Of a stretch of 44,260 nt of DNA, positions 18,005 to 44,113 are shown in pieces. A program made the position numbers and the translations under genes. The notes beneath the pieces are model-generated. The model was not told the origin of the DNA and did no database searches. It saw only the letters and a list, made by a program, of their open reading frames with translations. Each line of letters opens with the position of its first letter. Within the stretch, counting starts at the first letter, position 1. Source of the DNA: Sphingomonadaceae bacterium (GTDB lineage: Bacteria; Pseudomonadota; Alphaproteobacteria; Sphingomonadales; Sphingomonadaceae); assembly GCA_025362895.1 (NCBI GenBank), contig JANYFA010000040.1, positions 1-44,260 on the forward strand, in the 5' to 3' direction.

Positions 18005-19402
<1,398 letters not shown>

Positions 19403-19404
19403 CG

Positions 19405-20151
19405 TTATTCGGTGTTGAAAAGATTTCCGTCAGTAACAGTCGCGCAATACGCTTGGAACGCTGCCCGCGATTCTGGCGATCTCGCTGATACGTCAAACTG
19501 AACGGTGCGTTCGTCTAACACTGACGTTCGAAGATGAGATAGGTTACAATTAAAGATCGTAATGCTCGGCGCGGGTCTGCAGCTTTTTTCGTCATTCACT
19601 ATAAAATGAGACTGCTCCAACGCAGCGATGACATCGCTAAAATGAAGTTCTAGATCTTCTGGCGAGTCTGAAGACATAGATATGTCGTCGACGTAGACAG
19701 AAACCAGTACGCGCGGAGGCGGGCCCTCAAGCAGGCGTCCGGCCTGCGATGACGACAAAACCAAGGTAGCTAAGATCGGAGACTGGACAAACCCGTACGG
19801 CAGAACATAGCCGGGCTCTGCATAAGGGTTTTTTACGCAAGACCACTTTGCATAGTGTCGTGCTTGAATAACGCCAATCGTGCGTAATGCCCGTTGGACC
19901 CGACTCTTTGCCAGGCTGTAAAAAAGTCGACTTAAGTCAATCTTCGCAAAATATTTGTGGCTGCGGTGTCCATGCAAGGCCGCAATGTGTCCACCTGGCA
20001 TCAAATGAAGATAAACAGGATGGACCTGCCATAAATATTCGACCTGCGCCTTAACATCGTAGCCTATGCGATAGCCTCTACGGCTAGGTACAAAGATTGG
20101 CTTTCCGCGCGACTCGTAGCGATATTCGTAATTCTGAAATTGAACCGTCAT
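19405..20151 (-). CDS. lone reverse transcriptase (retron/DRT-like, subfamily not assigned)
   Basis: A 248-residue RNA-directed DNA polymerase. Core motifs in order: the first catalytic aspartate D72 in FAKIDLSRLFYSL (RT3), LPYGFVQSPILATL at 117-130 (RT4), the YVDD box at 153-156 in VSVYVDDISMSS (RT5), HFIVNDEKS at 182-190 (RT6) and ITIFNCNLSHL at 198-208 (RT7). All metal ligands are intact, so it is probably active. There is no maturase, endonuclease, integrase or protease domain, so it is not a group II intron or retroelement protein. It is shorter than most retron RTs. The ATG at 20151 has AAGG nine bases upstream; 14 more residues are open upstream but overlap the small ORF. The coding region is much poorer in GC than ntrX and hfq, which indicates acquisition. 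Anti-phage defence is a plausible inference only. Confidence 0.93.
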   Translation of the reverse strand: MTVQFQNYEYRYESRGKPIFVPSRRGYRIGYDVKAQVEYLWQVHPVYLHLMPGGHIAALHGHRSHKYFAKIDLSRLFYSLAKSRVQRALRTIGVIQARHYAKWSCVKNPYAEPGYVLPYGFVQSPILATLVLSSSQAGRLLEGPPPRVLVSVYVDDISMSSDSPEDLELHFSDVIAALEQSHFIVNDEKSCRPAPSITIFNCNLSHLRTSVLDERTVQFDVSARSPESRAAFQAYCATVTDGNLFNTE

Positions 20152-20263
20152 AGTTGACAACCTTGTCCACAAGTTCAACCACAACACTGACAAACTTAAT
20201 CAAGTCGGTCAGTACCGGAAGGTACTTGTGAACAAGATCGATGAGAGTACGCTTTTTCGGCAT
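20084..20263 (-). CDS. 59-residue helical protein overlapping the reverse transcriptase start
   Basis: The ATG at 20263 has a strong ribosome-binding site, AAGGAG, at 20276-20271 with seven bases spacing. The protein begins MPKKRTLIDLVHKYLPV, then a hydrophobic, valine/leucine-rich helix to about residue 36, followed by a hydrophilic tail. The reverse transcriptase begins at 20151 in another frame, so the last 68 bases are shared. The helix could bind the membrane or form a bundle. Possible readings: an accessory protein of the RT cassette, a leader peptide that couples RT translation, or the first part of a frameshift-fused protein. I recognise no family. The ribosome-binding site makes translation likely. 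Confidence 0.6.
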   Translation of the reverse strand: MPKKRTLIDLVHKYLPVLTDLIKFVSVVVELVDKVVNYDGSISELRISLRVARKANLCT

Positions 20264-20270
20264 ACCACAT

Positions 20271-20450
20271 CTCCTTGCTTACACGACCGGCAACCCACAA
20301 CCCCCAGCAGGGAGTCGTCAACCAAGAGAGCCGGATGGACCTCAAAAGCGTTAGTCTAGGGTGCCCTGCATCAGGGTTCCGAGAATAAGCCATGCTGAGC
20401 TGTGGGCTATCGCCGGACGATGACGCAAGCGTGGGATTGTATCGGCGACG
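20271..20450 (-). ncRNA. candidate structured RNA upstream of the reverse transcriptase cassette
   Basis: The minus-strand transcript of this stretch could form three hairpins. First, TCGCCG/CGGCGA arms (20443-20448 and 20410-20415), with an inner ACG-CUUG-CGU hairpin. Second, CCCUG-AUG-CAGGG (20376-20364). Third, ACGACUCCC-UGCU-GGGGGUUGU (20318-20297), nine pairs including two G-U, enclosed by CCGGC/GCCGG. In the third the two wobble pairs become mismatches on the opposite strand, so the fold belongs to the minus-strand RNA. The location just before a lone RT matches the place of template RNAs in retrons and several defence RTs. No protein-coding frame with a ribosome-binding site is evident here. 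Ends are approximate; it could also be only a structured 5' leader. Confidence 0.4.
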
Positions 20451-20492
20451 GTTCAAGTGCGCTTGCAGGCCTCTAAGGTGCCTCCTTGCCGC

Positions 20493-20521
20493 TTGAGCCT
20501 GCCTCCACCAACGCCTATATT
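20493..20521 (+). promoter_or_regulatory. candidate sigma-70 promoter of hfq
   Basis: TTGAGC (20493-20498) and TATATT (20516-20521) with an optimal 17-base spacer, giving a transcript start near 20528 and a leader of about 85 bases before hfq. It lies next to the outward-facing reverse transcriptase leader, so the two units share a divergent control region. Confidence 0.55.
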
Positions 20522-20613
20522 CACGCCTCTGGCCCTCGCCGGACAGCGGCGTTCCCGATCAACGGAGGTGTCGTGCAAACACGGTTTGCCAATAACAAGA
20601 AAGGCAAGAGCCC

Positions 20614-20865
20614 ATGGCCGAAAAGCCCACCAGCCTGCAGGACACGTTCCTGAACACCGTCCGCAAGACGCGCACCCCGGTGACCATGTTCCTCGTCAAC
20701 GGCGTTAAGCTGCAGGGCAATATCACCTGGTTCGATAATTTCAGCGTCTTGCTCCGCCGCGACGGCAATTCGCAGCTCGTCTACAAGCATGCGATCTCGA
20801 CGGTGATGCCCGCCGGGACGATCCAGCTGTTCGACGCGGAGAAGGTTGACGACGACGTTGAGTAA
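20614..20865 (+). CDS. hfq: RNA chaperone Hfq
   Basis: The 83-residue Sm-like protein forms a hexamer that pairs small RNAs with mRNAs. Sm1 is seen in [42 protein letters not shown] and Sm2 in [14 protein letters not shown] (the canonical YKHA(I/V)ST motif). The C-terminal tail is short and acidic ([11 protein letters not shown]), as in alphaproteobacteria. It ends in an overlap with hflX (TTGAGTAA). The order ntrX-hfq-hflX is conserved in the class, here interrupted by the reverse transcriptase cassette. Confidence 0.97.
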
Positions 20866-22423
20866 GCCCCCGGCGGACGTCGATACGCCCGACATTGCAA
20901 GCGACCATGCCCCCCCCGTGGATGCCCCGCCCTTGCGCCGCTCCGCGACCCGCGGAGTGTCCGCCCAGGCGCAGGCCGGGTTTGACGCGCAGCGCGGCAT
21001 CCGCTTCGGCGCGAACACCCTCGTCGTTATGCCCGACCGCGATGCCGCGGCGGGCAGGGGAGGCGGCGGGTCGCGTGGCGGGTCCGGCGCTCGCCTGCCC
21101 TCGACCGCGACGCGCGACGCCGAAGCGCGACTAGAGGAGGCGGTCGGACTCGCCGCTGCGATCAACCTCAACGTCGTCGAGCGCGAAATTATCCGCATCC
21201 GCAAGGCGAGCGCGTCGACGCTGTTCGGCAAGGGGCAGATCGAGCGGCTCCATGCGACCGTCGCCGCCCACGACATTTCCGTCGTCGTCGTCGACGGCGC
21301 GCTGTCGCCGATCCAGCAGCGCAACCTCGAAAAGGCGCTCGACGCCAAGGTCATCGACCGCACCGGGCTGATCCTCGAAATTTTCGGCGAGCGGGCGACG
21401 ACGCGCGAGGGGTCGCTCCAGGTCGAACTCGCCCACCTCGACTATCAGGCGAGCCGCCTTGTCCGCTCGTGGACCCACCTCGAACGCCAGCGCGGCGGCG
21501 TCGGCTTTCTCGGCGGCCCCGGTGAATCGCAGATCGAGAGCGACCGCCGCCAGATCCGCGACAAGATGGCGAAGCTCAAAAAGGAGCTCGACGAGGTCAA
21601 GCGGACCCGCGCGCTTCACCGCGACCGGCGGCAAAAGGCTCCGTACCCCGTCGTCGCGCTCGTCGGCTATACCAATGCCGGAAAATCGACGCTGTTCAAC
21701 CGCCTAACCGGGGCGACGGTGATGGCCGAGGACCTGCTGTTCGCGACGCTCGACCCGACGATGCGCGCGATCGAACTGCCCGGGGTCGACAAGGTCATCC
21801 TGTCCGACACGGTCGGCTTTATCAGCGCGCTGCCGACCCAGCTCGTCGCTGCCTTTCGTGCCACGCTCGAGGAGGTGATCGAAGCCGACCTGATCGTTCA
21901 CGTCCGCGATTGCGCCCACCCCGATAGCGAGGCGCAGGCCGCCGACGTGGCCGACGTCCTGCGCGGGCTGGGCGTGATCGACGGCGGCAGCGGCGAAACA
22001 AGCGCAACGGGCGCGTGGGACGCCGCAGCACGCGAACGCGGCGACAATGGCAGCGGCAACGACAGGGCTGTTGGCAAGGGGGAAGGGGCCACGATGCCGG
22101 TGCCGCTGATCACCGCGCTCAACAAGGTCGATATGCTCGACGCCGATGCCCGCGCCGGGCTGCTCTCCAACCTGCCCGACGACGCCGTCGCCATCTCGGC
22201 GGTGAGCGGGGAAGGGGTCGATGCCCTCCAGGCGTTGATCGCGGCGATGCTCCAGCGGTCGAGCCGCATCGCCGATTTCGTTCTCGCACCGGGCGACGGA
22301 AAGCGAGCGGCATGGCTGTATGCCCATGGCGAAGTCGTCGCCCGCACCGACGCCGACGACGGCGGCGTGACGCTGCGTGCCCGCCTGACCCCGGAAATGG
22401 CGGCGCGCTTCGCGGTGATGTGA
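20858..22423 (+). CDS. hflX: ribosome-associated GTPase HflX
   Basis: A GTPase that rescues or splits stalled 70S ribosomes under stress. The 521 residues contain the HflX-specific N-terminal region ([34 protein letters not shown]-type helices, [14 protein letters not shown]) and the G domain: G1 [12 protein letters not shown]3 DTVGF, G4 NKVD. I prefer the TTG at 20858, twelve bases after GGAGAAGG and overlapping the hfq stop; a TTG at 20846 abuts that site directly. There are two low-complexity additions: an N-terminal Gly/Arg segment ([12 protein letters not shown]) and a roughly 35-residue insertion before G4 ([20 protein letters not shown] and following). Confidence 0.94.
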
Positions 22424-35963: not shown

Positions 35964-36575
35964 TCAGAGCCGAGCCGCCATGAGCCGGGCCATGGCGAGC
36001 GCGCATTGCTCGTCTAAAGCCCAGTATACTTGTTCGTGCCGGTTGAAGGTGCGCTGCCACATTCCGCGCGGCCGACATATACCCGCCTCCCAGCCCGGCT
36101 CGCTGCCCAGCTTCCGTTGCAGGCGAAACAGCGCCCCAAACGGCCGGTCAGCACGGGATAGCCGCTGCGAATCATACGGGAGCCGCCATGCCGCACGCCC
36201 GGCGAAACGGTCGCCGCCGGGCGGAAGGTAAAGCTTGCCGACGCGTGCGCCGCTGAAAGGGCAACGCATGAACCACCGGCGGCCGCCATAGTTGGGCCGG
36301 GTGTGTGTCAGTATGACCGACTGGCGAATCGTCTCCGGTCCGCTTTCCCGCTGCCGGGAGTAGGTCAGCTCAAGCCGGGCGGCTTCGAGGTCGCGCATAT
36401 CGGACCGGTAGCCGATGGCCCCGGCGCACTCGCCGCCTCGCGTCCAGCTGAGTGTGCCAATGCAAAGGCGGCCGGGCACGGCGCGACCGGTGCGTATCAT
36501 CCATGCGAGGTCGATCCGCAGGCTGGCGTCTGCCGTAGGTCGCGACGCGTGCCGCCCACTGCCATAGCCGCCCAT
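35964..36575 (-). CDS. GYGSGR-type conserved hypothetical protein
   Basis: The 203 residues begin MGGYGSGRHASRPTADASLRID, a start I associate with uncharacterised proteins found in proteobacterial islands and plasmids. Later features: WMIRTGRAVPG, GTLSWTRGGECAGAIGYRSD, RRWFMRCPFSGARVGKLYLPPGGDRFAGR and a basic arginine-rich helix region with many tryptophan and tyrosine residues. No catalytic motif is recognised. It starts 15 bases after the HVH-motif gene, so they are probably co-transcribed. It is the last minus-strand gene of the island. Confidence 0.72.
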   Translation of the reverse strand: MGGYGSGRHASRPTADASLRIDLAWMIRTGRAVPGRLCIGTLSWTRGGECAGAIGYRSDMRDLEAARLELTYSRQRESGPETIRQSVILTHTRPNYGGRRWFMRCPFSGARVGKLYLPPGGDRFAGRAAWRLPYDSQRLSRADRPFGALFRLQRKLGSEPGWEAGICRPRGMWQRTFNRHEQVYWALDEQCALAMARLMAARL

Positions 36576-36590
36576 ATCGCCGTATCTAGA

Positions 36591-37289
36591 TTATCCGCAA
36601 TCATTAGCAAAGTGGCCTGTCGTTGTGCCGATGGCGTCTGCGTCCGGTCGCGTGTCAGCCCCTCGCCGGTCCGCTTCCGCTTCCGCAAAACGCCGGCGCG
36701 CCGCTACGCCAAGGTTTTGCGACCAGCCCGCCCGCTTGCCGATGATGCACCCTTGATAGGTCGGCTCGAACGTCGTCTGTCCTATCGTCGCCGCGACGCC
36801 GAGGGGTGCACCCTTTCTTTGATAATTAATCAGCTTCACGAGGTTGACCCGGTAACGCTCCGAGCCTTGGAGAGGGCAGTCGCGAGCGCCAGCAATCGCA
36901 CGTGAAAGCAGGACACCGGCCCGATACGGGCGGCCTGTCACGCGGCGTAGCCAACCCCTTTGCATCGCGAAAAAGGACGGCGCGAGCGCGGGAGGAAGGT
37001 GCAACAGGATATGGACGTGACTGCCCTTCGCGTCGCCTGTCTCGCGCGCGAAGGTGTATGCCGCCAAGCGGAATGCCCAGCTTGCCACGTCGAGGGAAGT
37101 CACTCCGTGTGGTCCAGCCGCCTTCAGGGCGGCAAGCGTGCGTGTCACCTGACCTAGCCGTTTGGAGCTTGCGACGGTCGCGCCCTCGGGCTTACTGTCG
37201 CCGCGCTCGGTCCAAAAAGCGGGCGAAACGGGGCCGGGAGCCGCTGTGGCGGTGGCTCTCGGCCATTCGATTGTGGGGGGAGCGTTCAC
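36591..37289 (-). CDS. island protein with HVHILLH motif, possible replication or mobilisation function
   Basis: The 232-residue product contains GSHVHILLHLPPALAP (about residues 88-103), then WLRRVTGRPYRAGVL, LSRAIAGARD, YRVNLVKLINYQRKG and a C-terminal GCIIGKRAGWSQNLG followed by an Arg/Ala-rich tail. The His-hydrophobic-His pattern recalls HUH nucleases and rolling-circle initiators, and similar uncharacterised proteins occur in small mobile elements, but I do not see a certain catalytic tyrosine motif. The GTG start overlaps the alpA-like stop (GTGTGA), showing coupling. The N-terminal 60 residues are low in recognisable features. Confidence 0.65.
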   Translation of the reverse strand: MNAPPTIEWPRATATAAPGPVSPAFWTERGDSKPEGATVASSKRLGQVTRTLAALKAAGPHGVTSLDVASWAFRLAAYTFARETGDAKGSHVHILLHLPPALAPSFFAMQRGWLRRVTGRPYRAGVLLSRAIAGARDCPLQGSERYRVNLVKLINYQRKGAPLGVAATIGQTTFEPTYQGCIIGKRAGWSQNLGVAARRRFAEAEADRRGADTRPDADAIGTTTGHFANDCG

Positions 37290-37480
37290 ACTGCGCCCCC
37301 GCCGACAGTCGGCAATGCCGCTGCCCAGCGCCGCGCTTCCGAAAGCGCCACCCGGCTAGAGCGGCCAATCTTTGTCAGCCGCAACTTGCCCGCGTTGACG
37401 GTGCGATAGAAGCCAGTGCGCGAGATTGCATAGGTTTGGAGGAAGTCGGGGACGGTAAGGTACCCGTCGTGGTCAGCCAT
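37286..37480 (-). CDS. AlpA-like helix-turn-helix regulator/excisionase
   Basis: The 64 residues form a MerR/AlpA-type winged helix: DGYLTVPDFLQTYAISRTGFYRTVNAGKLRLTKIGRSSRVALSEARRW follows the pattern of excisionase-family proteins that bind DNA near attachment sites and activate integrase or excision. GGAG lies nine bases before the ATG. It sits between the integrase-side gene and the HVH gene and probably controls the switch between integrated and excised states. Confidence 0.85.
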   Translation of the reverse strand: MADHDGYLTVPDFLQTYAISRTGFYRTVNAGKLRLTKIGRSSRVALSEARRWAAALPTVGGGAV

Positions 37481-37559
37481 GTTGACGTCTCCATGTCAGC
37501 CCAGGATTGGGCGTTCCACGGAGTATCTCGGAACAAACGGCGACAAAAGGAGGAATTAG

Positions 37560-38105
37560 TCAGCTCTTTTGTGCTTTGGCCTGACGAAACACGCGCTCCG
37601 CTTCGTCCCAAGATGCAAGGGTGCTATCTCTAAGAGTAGGACGCGTACCCGCGCGCACGTTAATGCTATCCGCACTGGCCGCGAACTCGCGCCCTTCCCT
37701 CAGGCGTTGAAATGCCATGGCACGCGATATGCCCCAGTGATGCGCCATGTCGCTCACTGCATTCTTTAGCGGCTTACCGTCGCGCTTCGCTCTCTCAACA
37801 GCCGCCCAGAGGCTAAAAGCCTCGCTAAAATGGCGTTCCGCTACATCGGGCGGAACGTATACGCCGCGTGTGGTTCTTGTAAGCGTCAGTTTCCATTCGC
37901 TTGCAGAGTTGTCGAGTGCGTCGGCAAGAGCCTCTAAAAAGCGGCTTCCGGCGTCCGCATTCTCACGGGCTAGTTGAACGAGCACATCCGCAATAGCAGG
38001 AGCGTCAAATGGCATCGGCTCGTTGTCCAAGCCGCGCCAAATGCGCATAGCGCGCTCTAAGCCGAAGTTGACACGGAGCGTTCGCCAGTCGCCGTTCTTC
38101 GCCAC
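37560..38105 (-). CDS. hypothetical protein coupled to the integrase
   Basis: The 181-residue protein starts with GTG directly after the integrase TAG. It contains MAKNGDWRTLRVNFGLERAMRIW at the N-terminus, a helical middle and DMAHHWGISRAMAFQRLREGRE, which looks like a helix-turn-helix. It may be a DNA-binding regulator. No family is recognised. Base composition is lower in GC than the chromosomal flanks. Confidence 0.7.
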   Translation of the reverse strand: MAKNGDWRTLRVNFGLERAMRIWRGLDNEPMPFDAPAIADVLVQLARENADAGSRFLEALADALDNSASEWKLTLTRTTRGVYVPPDVAERHFSEAFSLWAAVERAKRDGKPLKNAVSDMAHHWGISRAMAFQRLREGREFAASADSINVRAGTRPTLRDSTLASWDEAERVFRQAKAQKS

Positions 38106-39278
38106 CTAAGCCACCAGCCGCACGACGTTGGTGCTACCGCCCGCCGCGTAGTCCGCCCAAGCCTCTAGGAGCGGCCTACGGCGCTCCAGAAGGTCGCCGC
38201 GCTGGTAGGCTGCTTCAAGCTTCCCTTGTGTGTGTGCGAGGGCCATTTCAACTATCTCGCCGACAAAGTGGGTTTGCTCCGCTGCCCAACTTTTGAAGGT
38301 TGCCCGGAATCCGTGAGCGGTGACTTGAAAGCCCATGTCCCTCGCCACCTTGCCAAGCGTCGCATCGCTCATTGGCCGATCGGCGCGCGCGCCTTGGAAA
38401 ACGTAGTTTGAGCGCGGATTGCGAAGTTCGCGCGCGCGGATGAAAACGCGGCGGGCGGATGGTGACAAGGGGACGCGGTGCTCGCGCCCGCCCTTCATCT
38501 TCGAACCCGGAATTGTCCAGAGCCCGGCTTCGAGGTCCAACTCGTCCCAAGTCGCGCCGCGTATCTCGCCGGGCCGGGCCGCCGTGAGGATCAGCGCCTC
38601 GAGTGCCAGCCGCCCGAACGTCTCGCGCTCGCGAAGCCTGCCGACGAACGCGGGTAGCTCGCTGTAGTGAAGGGCCGCGTGGTGCCCCTTGGCCGCGCGG
38701 TGCCGTGGTAGGCCCTTAGACAACGCGCGGAGCGGAGCCTCACTGACCCGGTACCCCTTTGCGTGCGCCCAATCTAGGACGGCGGCAACGCGCTGCTTCA
38801 CCCGCCGCGCCGTCTCCGGTTTCTCAAGCCATATCGCTGCGAGCACGTCGCGCACGGCTGGTGCTTCAATGCCGTCAACGCGCGTCGTGCCTAGTGCGGG
38901 GAAGGCGTAAGCTTCGAGCGAGGAAAGCCATTGGGAGCGGTGCGGACCACTACGCCACCCTTTCTCATGCTCGGTATAAAAGGCGATGGAGGCCTCCCGG
39001 AACGTCGGTACGCCAGCCGCCCGGCGACGCTCGGCAACCGGGTCTAGGCCGCCTTCGACCTGAGCACGGATGCGAGACGCCCGGTCACGCGCTTGCGCGA
39101 GCGATACCTTGGCGCGGCTGCCAAGCCCGAACTCGCGCCGCCGCCCGTCCTTTTGGACGCGCACGATCCATGACGCGGAGCCGGTGGACGAAACCGCCAG
39201 ATAAAGCCCCTCGCCGTCGCCGTAGCTACCCGGCTCGCGTAGCGCCTTGATCTGAGTTGCCGTAAGCTTGCCCATCAC
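38106..39278 (-). CDS. tyrosine recombinase (P4-type phage integrase)
   Basis: The 390 residues start with the DUF4102-type arm-binding domain (KLTATQIKALREPGSYGDGEGLYLAV, REFGLGSRAKVSLAQARDRA). A SAM-like core-binding domain follows, then the catalytic domain with the first arginine in TAARPGEIRGATW, HGFRATFKSW (His-x-x-Arg) and the nucleophilic tyrosine in LEAAYQRGDLLERR. It lies about 135 bases from the 3' end of tRNA-Ser, the usual place for an integrase that uses that tRNA as its attachment site. All catalytic residues are present, so it is probably active. Confidence 0.94.
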   Translation of the reverse strand: MMGKLTATQIKALREPGSYGDGEGLYLAVSSTGSASWIVRVQKDGRRREFGLGSRAKVSLAQARDRASRIRAQVEGGLDPVAERRRAAGVPTFREASIAFYTEHEKGWRSGPHRSQWLSSLEAYAFPALGTTRVDGIEAPAVRDVLAAIWLEKPETARRVKQRVAAVLDWAHAKGYRVSEAPLRALSKGLPRHRAAKGHHAALHYSELPAFVGRLRERETFGRLALEALILTAARPGEIRGATWDELDLEAGLWTIPGSKMKGGREHRVPLSPSARRVFIRARELRNPRSNYVFQGARADRPMSDATLGKVARDMGFQVTAHGFRATFKSWAAEQTHFVGEIVEMALAHTQGKLEAAYQRGDLLERRRPLLEAWADYAAGGSTNVVRLVA

Positions 39279-39281
39279 CTT

Positions 39282-39299
39282 CCCGCCATTTCTTCCGCC
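39282..39299 (+). repeat. 18-bp direct repeat next to the integrase start (candidate arm site)
   Basis: CCCGCCATTTCTTCCGCC, identical to 35112-35129 at the other end of the element and in the same orientation. It lies just upstream of the integrase ATG, so it could also serve autoregulation by the integrase. Confidence 0.6.
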
Positions 39300-39413
39300 A
39301 CTGATAGCGGGTCATTGCGGAATAGCAAGGGACGCGGGGGAACGGATTTAGCGGCTAACTAGCGAAATTCAGGCGCTTTCGCTCGTTTCGCGACATTCCA
39401 GAAAATGGCTAAG

Positions 39414-39427
39414 CGGAGGATGAGGTG
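39414..39427 (+). repeat. right attachment repeat, 3' end of tRNA-Ser
   Basis: CGGAGGATGAGGTG, identical to 35033-35046. It covers the 3'-terminal acceptor strand of the tRNA, so integration restores an intact tRNA gene. Confidence 0.75.
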
Positions 39428-39503
39428 GGATTCGAACCCACGGTGAGCTTGCACCCACGGCGGTTTTCAAGACCGCTGCCTTAGACCACTCGGCCACTCA
39501 TCC
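39414..39503 (-). tRNA. tRNA-Ser (anticodon TGA)
   Basis: On the minus strand: acceptor GGATGAG (39503-39497) pairs with CTCATCC (39424-39418); D-arm GGCCGAGTGGTCTAAGGC; anticodon stem-loop GCGGT-CTTGAAA-ACCGC with anticodon TGA; a long variable arm (GTGGGTGCAAGCTCAC) as in class II serine tRNAs; T-arm GTGGG-TTCGAAT-CCCAC. The base after the acceptor is T and the next three are CCG, so CCA is not encoded and the discriminator differs from the G usual for serine tRNAs. It is the attachment site of the adjacent element. Confidence 0.95.
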
Positions 39504-43699: not shown

Positions 43700-44113
43700 A
43701 TGAACTATCCGGTCGATCGGACGCGCGATGACGATACGATCCTCGTCACCTTTCCCGACGTGCCCGAGGCCATCACTTTCGAAGCCGATCGCGACGACTC
43801 GCTCGCCCGAGCGGTCGATGCGCTCGAAACCGCGCTGATGGGCTACATCGCCGACCGTCGCGACATCCCGAGGCCCGGGGCAAGCGGGGGACGGCCCATC
43901 GTGGCGATGACGCTGCTCGGGTCGATGAAGATCACCCTCTATCAGGCGATGCGCGCGAAGGGCTGGCGCAAGGCCGACCTCGCCCGCGCGCTTCACGTCG
44001 ATCCGCGTCAGGTCGACCGCCTGCTCGACCTGCGCCACGGCTCGCCGGTGACACAGATCGAAGCGGCGCTCGCGGCGTGCGGGCATACAGTGCGGGTGGA
44101 GCTGGTGGCGTAG
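43700..44113 (+). CDS. hicB: HicB-like antitoxin, no partner toxin seen
   Basis: The 137 residues have the HicB partial RNase-H-like fold (NYPVDRTRDDDTILVTFPDVPEAITFEADRDDSLARAVDALETALMGYI) and a C-terminal helix-turn-helix (YQAMRAKGWRKADLARALHVDPRQVDRLLDL). In complete systems HicA, a small double-stranded-RNA-binding ribonuclease toxin, is adjacent. None is present in the 438 bases upstream, and an IS element starts 14 bases downstream. It may be a solitary regulator or the remnant of a pair. GAAGGA lies about seven bases before the ATG. Confidence 0.85.
   Translation: MNYPVDRTRDDDTILVTFPDVPEAITFEADRDDSLARAVDALETALMGYIADRRDIPRPGASGGRPIVAMTLLGSMKITLYQAMRAKGWRKADLARALHVDPRQVDRLLDLRHGSPVTQIEAALAACGHTVRVELVA

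Follow-up and report, generated by a model that had tools for sequence, protein, structure and literature searches.

Retron types are reportedly set out in the work of Mestre et al. from 2020, and the effector of retron type IV (Ec48) is a larger two-transmembrane protein. In retrons, a reverse transcriptase (RT) and its RT-DNA keep a toxin neutralized for as long as no phage interferes with their complex, and 13 types are distinguished (abstract and passages of PMC12548924). The priming guanosine of retrons lies at the inner end of the a1/a2 stem, most often within TAGC (passages of PMC6868368). Other RTs, namely those of DRT2, DRT9 and DRT10, are likewise described, in abstracts, with a nearby structured RNA and in a defense context. 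Among peptide toxins, the TisB-type membrane toxins of type I systems are shorter than 60 aa and form a hydrophobic helix that bears positive as well as negative charges along a narrow strip (passages of PMC8309996).

Here, we describe a cassette of ~1.1 kb from a 44,260-nt stretch of Sphingomonadaceae DNA (the window), in which a leader RNA, a 59-aa ORF and an RT gene follow one another. All three lie on the minus strand, flanked by ntrX and hfq. As in retrons, the RT has the retron enzymes Eco1/Ec86 and Eco8 as its nearest characterized relatives by sequence and by Foldseek, it is preceded by an RNA with a complementary 5'/3' stem, which carries TAGC at its inner end in the window, and, as in some retrons, an ORF stands between RNA and RT (passages of PMC6868368). 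Unlike retrons, however, the cassette has an RT of only 248 aa with FN in place of VTG, which forms a clade of its own and fits no PADLOC retron model as a member, and it pairs this RT with a protein whose core measures 38 aa. A membrane effector, as in type IV, is only proposed for the cassette, and the RT_IV model, with 386 positions, is not among the 25 best PADLOC models of the window RT. The small protein resembles the TisB-type toxins in length, predicted helix and charge distribution, a likeness by description rather than by sequence comparison, whereas its partner is an RT-RNA unit. In contrast to the DRT systems, with which the cassette shares an RT beside a structured RNA, its matches to DRT profiles are much weaker, and the DRT structures matched by Foldseek are larger (425-496 residues).

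The cassette is best explained as a compact retron-like defense or toxin-antitoxin unit with the small peptide as its effector, to which we assign a probability of about 0.57. That it represents a new, and perhaps the smallest, type of retron, with a pore-type peptide of ~30-60 residues as effector and a minimal RT with msDNA as antitoxin, is close to an even bet and is put forward tentatively; such a type would join the logic of retrons to the chemistry of type I toxins, and would have an RT with FN for VTG and a relaxed TAG priming site. In its anatomy, the cassette shares the three parts of retrons, with a partner protein that would have shrunk to a membrane-type peptide. As both the peptide step and the synthesis of msDNA are proposals, the cassette is called retron-like and a candidate new type, not a proven retron. 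A small ORF of this kind beside an RT is not described in the titles, abstracts and passages that were searched, including the abstract of PMC13405049 and passages of PMC9122126 and PMC8934634.

Genomic setting of the cassette

The features of the cassette are collected in Table 1. On its two sides lie a protein with Response_reg and Sigma54_activat domains (ntrX-like) and Hfq, as assigned by Pfam, and its GC content is 0.506 over positions 19501-20500 vs 0.66-0.69 in neighboring intervals beyond the cassette. The gap between ntrX and hfq amounts to 1214 nt in the window. Of 29 further hfq loci, 15 have ntrX within the fetched stretch, at a distance of 131-523 nt, and the fetched stretch of the remaining 14 contains no ntrX. 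Since four genomes of the same genus (L225-L228) hold differing DNA at this place, with ~0.5 to 3 kb unlike the interval at 19402-20614 of the window, the ntrX-hfq interval is a cargo spot that varies within the genus. An RVT_1 search of the window's own genome, which is 76.6% complete, returned one RT, that of the cassette. Promoter-like blocks that were seen by eye in the leader alignment are not claimed, because, around the start of the leader, a sigma-70 consensus scan detected no site on the minus strand.

An earlier, sequence-only reading of this DNA had described a lone RT cassette, poorer in GC than its flanks, placed like cargo between housekeeping genes and containing a small helical ORF and a hairpin-rich stretch ahead of the RT. 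Composition and placement are borne out by the values above; the ORF was recovered as an overlapping frame at the RT start, and the hairpin-rich stretch corresponds to a multi-branch minimum free energy (MFE) fold whose pairs covary in 25 relatives.

Elsewhere in the window, a tyrosine integrase gene (38109-39278, minus strand) with an Arm-DNA-binding domain adjoins a tRNA-Ser gene (39415-39503, minus strand), and none of the three ORFs beside it is matched by Pfam at E<=0.001; the stretch 35967-39503 is probably a small integrated element. An ORF at 43700-44110 has a sub-cutoff Pfam match to HTH_31 and an N-terminus that we take, by eye, to be HicB-like, and is possibly an antitoxin.

Table 1. 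Features of the cassette, in window coordinates
Feature	Position	Strand	Basis
Structured non-coding RNA, msr-msd-like leader (putative; ends approximate)	20273..20426	-	MFE fold, consensus, covariation
a1 arm, CGTCCGGC	20412..20419	-	7/8 pairs with 20284-20291, MFE fold and consensus helix 1
TAGC, inner end of a1, with G20407 as candidate priming guanosine	20406..20409	-	Sequence, family survey, placement as in passages of PMC6868368
Inner stem, 3' strand (partner 20397-20406)	20294..20304	-	Sequence and consensus helices 2 and 3
a2 arm, GCCGGTCG	20284..20291	-	Sequence, MFE fold, consensus
Small hydrophobic protein, 59 aa	20084..20263	-	ORF call, alignment, cross-clade profile, polar stripe
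Reverse transcriptase, 248 aa, ATG at 20151	19405..20151	-	ORF call, Pfam, alignment, AlphaFold, fold matches

The small protein encoded ahead of the RT

Clear conservation of the small ORF is limited to its first 38 codons (20150-20263), a core that ends with VVNY at the RT start codon; the other 21 codons lie within the RT gene. No match to the small protein was obtained from Pfam, PADLOC or NCBIfam, in line with the earlier failure to assign it to an accessory family, and against PHROGs only values of 0.021 and 0.27 were obtained. Its conservation was assessed with a profile trained on 67 distinct small proteins from outside the window's clade, which was run against the 4853 stop-to-stop ORFs of 30 clade loci. 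With a threshold of E<=1 it found the ORF at the expected place in all but one of these loci (29 of 30, with 25 reaching E<=0.01; the 29 small proteins are distinct, some being near-copies) and nothing elsewhere, the small ORF of the window being matched at E=3.1e-7. The reverse test was weaker: searched with a clade-trained profile, 103 other loci yielded 46 matches at E<=1, of which 39 occupied the position of the small ORF, and the best matches were decayed members of the window's clade itself (L016 and L040). These two copies of the cassette, in Rhizobium jaguaris and Aquamicrobium, respectively, contain frame breaks.

With profiles that were partly trained on the same loci, a homolog was counted in 121 of 133 fetched loci (109 of 121 distinct sequences). 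The 12 loci lacking a counted small ORF comprise three that lie outside the family (L094-L096), two cut at a contig end (L041, L088), six with partial RT frames (L038, L086, L087, L091-L093) and L047, in which an ORF ending in NY is visible but was not counted. Wherever both starts were assigned (108/108 loci), the small ORF overlaps the RT start by 4-166 nt on the same strand, the RT start being taken as the earliest start codon in a search that began 12 nt ahead of the NY end. A separate small ORF is missing from L038 and from L101-L103, the latter being fusions: the small protein is joined in frame to the RT on four viral (prophage) contigs (L101-L103 and L233), which carry two distinct sequences with 69% identity. 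In an AlphaFold model of one natural fusion, the helix is not docked on the RT and has a pLDDT of ~39-49.

Across 93 small proteins the core measures 31-58 aa (median 38), and the maximum Kyte-Doolittle-19 hydropathy reaches at least 1.6 in 68 of 96. Polar residues gather on one face, with a mean resultant of 0.60 vs 0.33 after shuffling and p<=0.05 for 46 of 93 proteins, and p=0.012 for that of the window, in whose helical wheel D9, K13, D20, K23, E30 and K34 fall within 120-220 degrees and K3, K4 and D33 outside. The Y at the end of all 96 proteins partly reflects the script, which required N, S, H, I or Y followed by Y; the penultimate residue, free among these letters, is N in 86 of 96. 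The small protein is predicted to be a single hydrophobic or amphipathic helix with a polar stripe, and would have the short hydrophobic helix expected of a type I toxin; by its resemblance to such toxins it is a candidate membrane toxin.

Alternatively, the small protein may be an obligate cofactor or leader peptide rather than a toxin, coupling translation of the RT to the upstream RNA or serving as a membrane-anchoring RT subunit. Such a role would suit a conserved core that ends at the RT start codon, the overlap in every locus with both starts assigned and the existence of natural in-frame fusions, yet a mere leader needs no conserved hydrophobic helix with a polar stripe, a feature with which a membrane anchor is still compatible. 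We consider this unlikely, although it is the strongest competitor of the peptide-effector reading.

The leader RNA

The leader of the window has as its MFE fold a closed multi-branch structure of ~150 nt, in which the last hairpin competes with part of the 3' strand of the inner stem; the edge at 20426 was chosen to lie 12 nt ahead of the GGCGATAG motif and does not represent a mapped terminus. When 25 leaders of the window's clade were aligned, 16 columns were invariant and RNAalifold returned 26 pairs, 13 of them with compensatory change. Within this consensus of 25 relatives, 92.4% of cells are paired vs 38-50% when the partner is slid, and double changes are seen in 68 cells vs a shuffled mean of 23.8. 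A covariance model scored the window leader at 85.3 bits, the window being one of its 25 training rows, and found six clade loci outside the training set, some of which are near-copies of training rows. Beyond the clade, 13 of 68 loci were matched at E<=10 (five at E<=0.05, the weakest at 6.3), all 13 at full length and directly upstream of the small ORF, with five weak matches elsewhere; 32 control loci (28 reference RT loci, L006 and L094-L096) gave three matches, the best of 6.5 bits.

A motif scan, written only once the motif had been noticed, searched for an 8-nt arm before TA(A/G)(C/G) with a partner in the last 50 nt preceding the small ORF. Among 107 distinct leaders, 8 of 8 pairs were formed in 64 (9 in the shuffled control), 7 in 27 (control 39) and 6 in 4 (control 44), the motif being absent from 12; for the a1 arm of the window, another partner of equal score (7/8) was listed first. 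The tetramer at the inner end of the 91 leaders with a 7- or 8-pair arm is TAGG in 56, TAGC in 26, TAAC in 5 and TAAG in 4. The leader has a covarying a1/a2 stem of the retron type, with the complementary 5' and 3' ends that characterize retrons, and the putative TAGC priming site is present in the window and variable across the family.

The sequence-only reading had named homologs devoid of both the small ORF and the upstream structure as evidence that would speak against it; instead, the same small ORF and leader layout recur beside homologous RTs, and the layout is found in most distinct leaders. Judged by sequence comparison, leader RNA, small ORF and RT are kept together over wide divergence. 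Over 19300-20900, Rfam at E<=1 contained no intron, and its sole match, to a microRNA family (0.86), was taken as chance.

Placement of the reverse transcriptase

RVT_1 is the sole Pfam match of the window RT (1.2e-13, above cutoff), in agreement with the initial description of a single-domain enzyme with D72 and a YVDD box (D155, D156), and AlphaFold gave a confident model (pLDDT 96, pTM 0.91). The catalytic residues are accompanied by H62, the histidine of retron region X, and by F200 and N201 where VTG is expected; all of these positions are invariant in 74 aligned family RTs, at a mean column identity of 41%. In region X, His is present in 40/40 family RTs and the Asn position is occupied by Ala (38), Val (1) or Gly (1), Ala being also found there in the type I-B and type IX references and in three of four reference retrons of type III-A. 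A plain text search for NAxxH anywhere in the sequence succeeded in 2 of 40 family RTs vs 20 of 33 references, and at the start of region Y none of the 40 has VTG and all have FN, VTG being present in 16 of 33 reference RTs and G at that position in all 33. Each of the motifs NAXXH and VTG is reported for 14 of 16 validated retrons (passages of PMC6868368).

Among solved structures, the window RT is matched best by sequence to Ec86 (1.4e-12, over Ec86 60-297), followed by Eco8, Kva2 and Ec83, the best non-retron structures being a group II RT (6.2e-6), a DGR RT (7.8e-6) and DRT9 (3.7e-5). The top 13 Foldseek matches of the RT model are all retron RTs, and VIA-align Z-scores are 18.8 for Eco8 and 18.7 for Ec86, but also 17.5 for DGR and 17.2 for group II; the fold is matched by DGR, group II, telomerase, DRT2, DRT9 and AbiA structures as well.

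PADLOC retron models match all 74 family RTs at E<=1e-3, the nearest types being VI, I-B, II-A and IX. On the best of these models, the window RT (P0001) scores 34.4 bits and five other members 52.6-76.7 bits, whereas 27 retron references, a set that excludes L094-L096, reach 234-754 bits on the type that suits them best and, within the top 25 models listed for each protein, 76-374 bits on other types; by their scores, the window RT and the five other members fit none of the PADLOC retron types as members. With 33 bits on an NCBIfam retron model, the window RT is no member of any NCBIfam retron or DRT model either. Three group II RTs that exceed the TIGR04416 cutoff score higher on an NCBIfam retron model (72-84 bits). 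A profile of the family RTs in turn gives retron references 14-54 bits and the three group II RTs 19-26 bits. The profile searches that had been proposed earlier rank retron models above DRT/UG models with none fitting as a member, and the initial failure to match the RT to a named subfamily holds, as none of the PADLOC retron types fits. The other outcome that the sequence-only reading had named as speaking against it, a clear fall of the RT into a well-described subfamily, thus did not occur.

A maximum likelihood tree was built from 40 of the 74 family RTs and 33 references (27 retron RTs, L094-L096 and three group II RTs). All 40 family rows fall on a single branch (support 100/100, stem of 2.16 changes per column) that is separate from the group II RTs at 100/100 and stands next to retron type I-B at 84/80; because the latter joining carries a long-branch warning, no sister type is claimed. 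The tree does not sample DRT and DGR RTs or retron types VII, VIII, X and XII; of the comparison initially envisaged, it covers the retron and group II rows, against which the clade is distinct. The nearest characterized relatives of the window RT are retron RTs, with a modest affinity, and its family is a clade of its own outside the sampled retron types.

A DRT-like RT-ncRNA system appears improbable. In such a system the product would be a repetitive or protein-primed DNA instead of the msDNA of retrons, and the small protein would act as effector or regulator. This reading would account for FN in the place of VTG, for a TAG that is not strictly kept and for an RT outside the sampled retron types, and DRT systems with an ncRNA exist (abstracts of PMC12483538 and PMC12489045). 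The a1/TAG/a2 layout is retron-like, however, and retron models outscore DRT/UG models for P0001 and five further members: for the window RT, PADLOC gives RT_II-A 3.1e-9 vs 0.0022 for Drt5, 0.0052 for UG20 and 0.013 for UG26, the four DRT/UG models among its listed matches being 398-511 positions long, and for the other five the best DRT/UG match among those listed is UG33 with 36.4 bits, where RT_VI gives 64.3. NCBIfam Drt5 gives the window RT 15.7 bits against a cutoff of 550. The retron arm is preferred over DRT because of these weaker DRT/UG matches.

A plain retron of RNA and RT alone, with the small ORF as a fortuitous overlapping frame, is highly implausible, for although many retron cassettes consist of msr, msd and RT only (passages of PMC6868368), the cross-clade profile test and the fusions strongly oppose a chance frame. 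Just as little credence is given to a degenerate remnant of a group II intron, DGR or CRISPR-associated RT, which the RVT_1 match and a generic RT model labeled CRISPR-associated (the best raw PADLOC E-value for P0001, 6.4e-14) might suggest, but which is at odds with intact catalytic residues, a conserved RNA and two-gene layout, RVT_1 as the sole Pfam domain, the separation from three group II RTs in the tree and 14.6 bits on the group II model TIGR04416, where the cutoff is 300.

Proposed mechanism

For the retron-like unit with a peptide effector, we propose that the RT copies part of the leader RNA into a short msDNA, with synthesis probably primed from the TAG guanosine, and that the complex of RT, RNA and DNA would neutralize the small protein. 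Disturbance of the complex by a phage would free the peptide, which could then insert into the inner membrane and depolarize the cell, so that the infection is aborted; the overlapping starts of small ORF and RT would keep toxin and neutralizer in step. The proposal that this is a new retron- or DRT-type candidate with a small ORF and a template RNA, already part of the sequence-only reading, gains support from the small ORF in 121 of 133 loci, from the leader layout in most distinct leaders and from the separate branch of the RT. Against the model count the missing VTG of 40/40 family RTs, a TAGC that is not universal, the modest retron affinity of the RT, the undocked helix of the natural fusion and the limited reach, beyond the window's clade, of the RNA model (13 of 68 loci) and of the clade-trained small-protein profile (39 of 103 loci). 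If the model is true, a widespread compact retron-like class would offer a minimal RT useful for structural and genome-editing work, and, with an RT-DNA complex that senses phage paired to a toxic peptide, the restraint of a membrane-active helix by such a complex would become directly testable.

Distribution and neighborhood

Within the same order, 5 of 396 genomes match at E<=1e-3, the window's own genome included, and one of them (L006) is a type XI retron only. Further matches are found in nine plasmid records, seven of them from Rhizobiales (identity 32-49%), and in 13 Klebsiella phage records (identity 32%). A scan of genome contigs with a 12-row alignment yielded 89 relatives among 203 pattern matches, of which 80 were kept, and in viral contigs an alignment scan gave 39 relatives among 69 matches, where a single protein as query had given no match. 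The genome hosts are labeled Pseudomonadota nearly throughout, with one metagenome-assembled genome labeled Roizmanbacteria. The weakest matches kept, L094-L096 from other phyla, were rejected as family members, with 68-82 bits on the family profile. Two members, L163 and L164, which seem to be identical to the loci L063 and L057, reach more than 330 bits. The family's RT and small protein are recorded under the accessions WP_000151542.1 and WP_000380485.1, respectively. Two of the rejected RTs, L094 and L096 (290 and 309 aa, labeled Bacteroidota), have RT_VI as their best PADLOC model at only ~200 bits and are perhaps another unclassified retron group.

In Escherichia coli, one P2-type copy was matched in 34 of 5426 genomes, in 32 of them over at least 80%, and in strain JL05 it lies in a P2-like prophage between an ogr-like gene and ssrA. 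The cassette is unannotated as a system even in these prophages: the 15 E. coli copies listed carry only the NCBI labels 'reverse transcriptase domain-containing protein' and 'hypothetical protein'. With a close relative in an E. coli P2-like prophage, the model is therefore testable in E. coli.

The neighbors of plasmid copies include Xre/RES toxin-antitoxin, S8 peptidase with ATP-binding protein, AbiEii, PIN-domain and abortive-infection genes. Of 306 flanking ORFs from 87 loci, 79 were compared with PADLOC, and any neighbor enrichment is read here without a baseline. The 25 families listed, of 83 matched at E<=1e-15, include type I and II methylases, LmuB, mad2, Argonaute-SIR2, PLD-helicase, RmrA, PDC-S01 and PD-Lambda-1, each listed defense family being found in one or two proteins. 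On two Rhizobiales plasmids (L007 and L009), the pair of S8 peptidase and ATP-binding protein is found again beside the RT.
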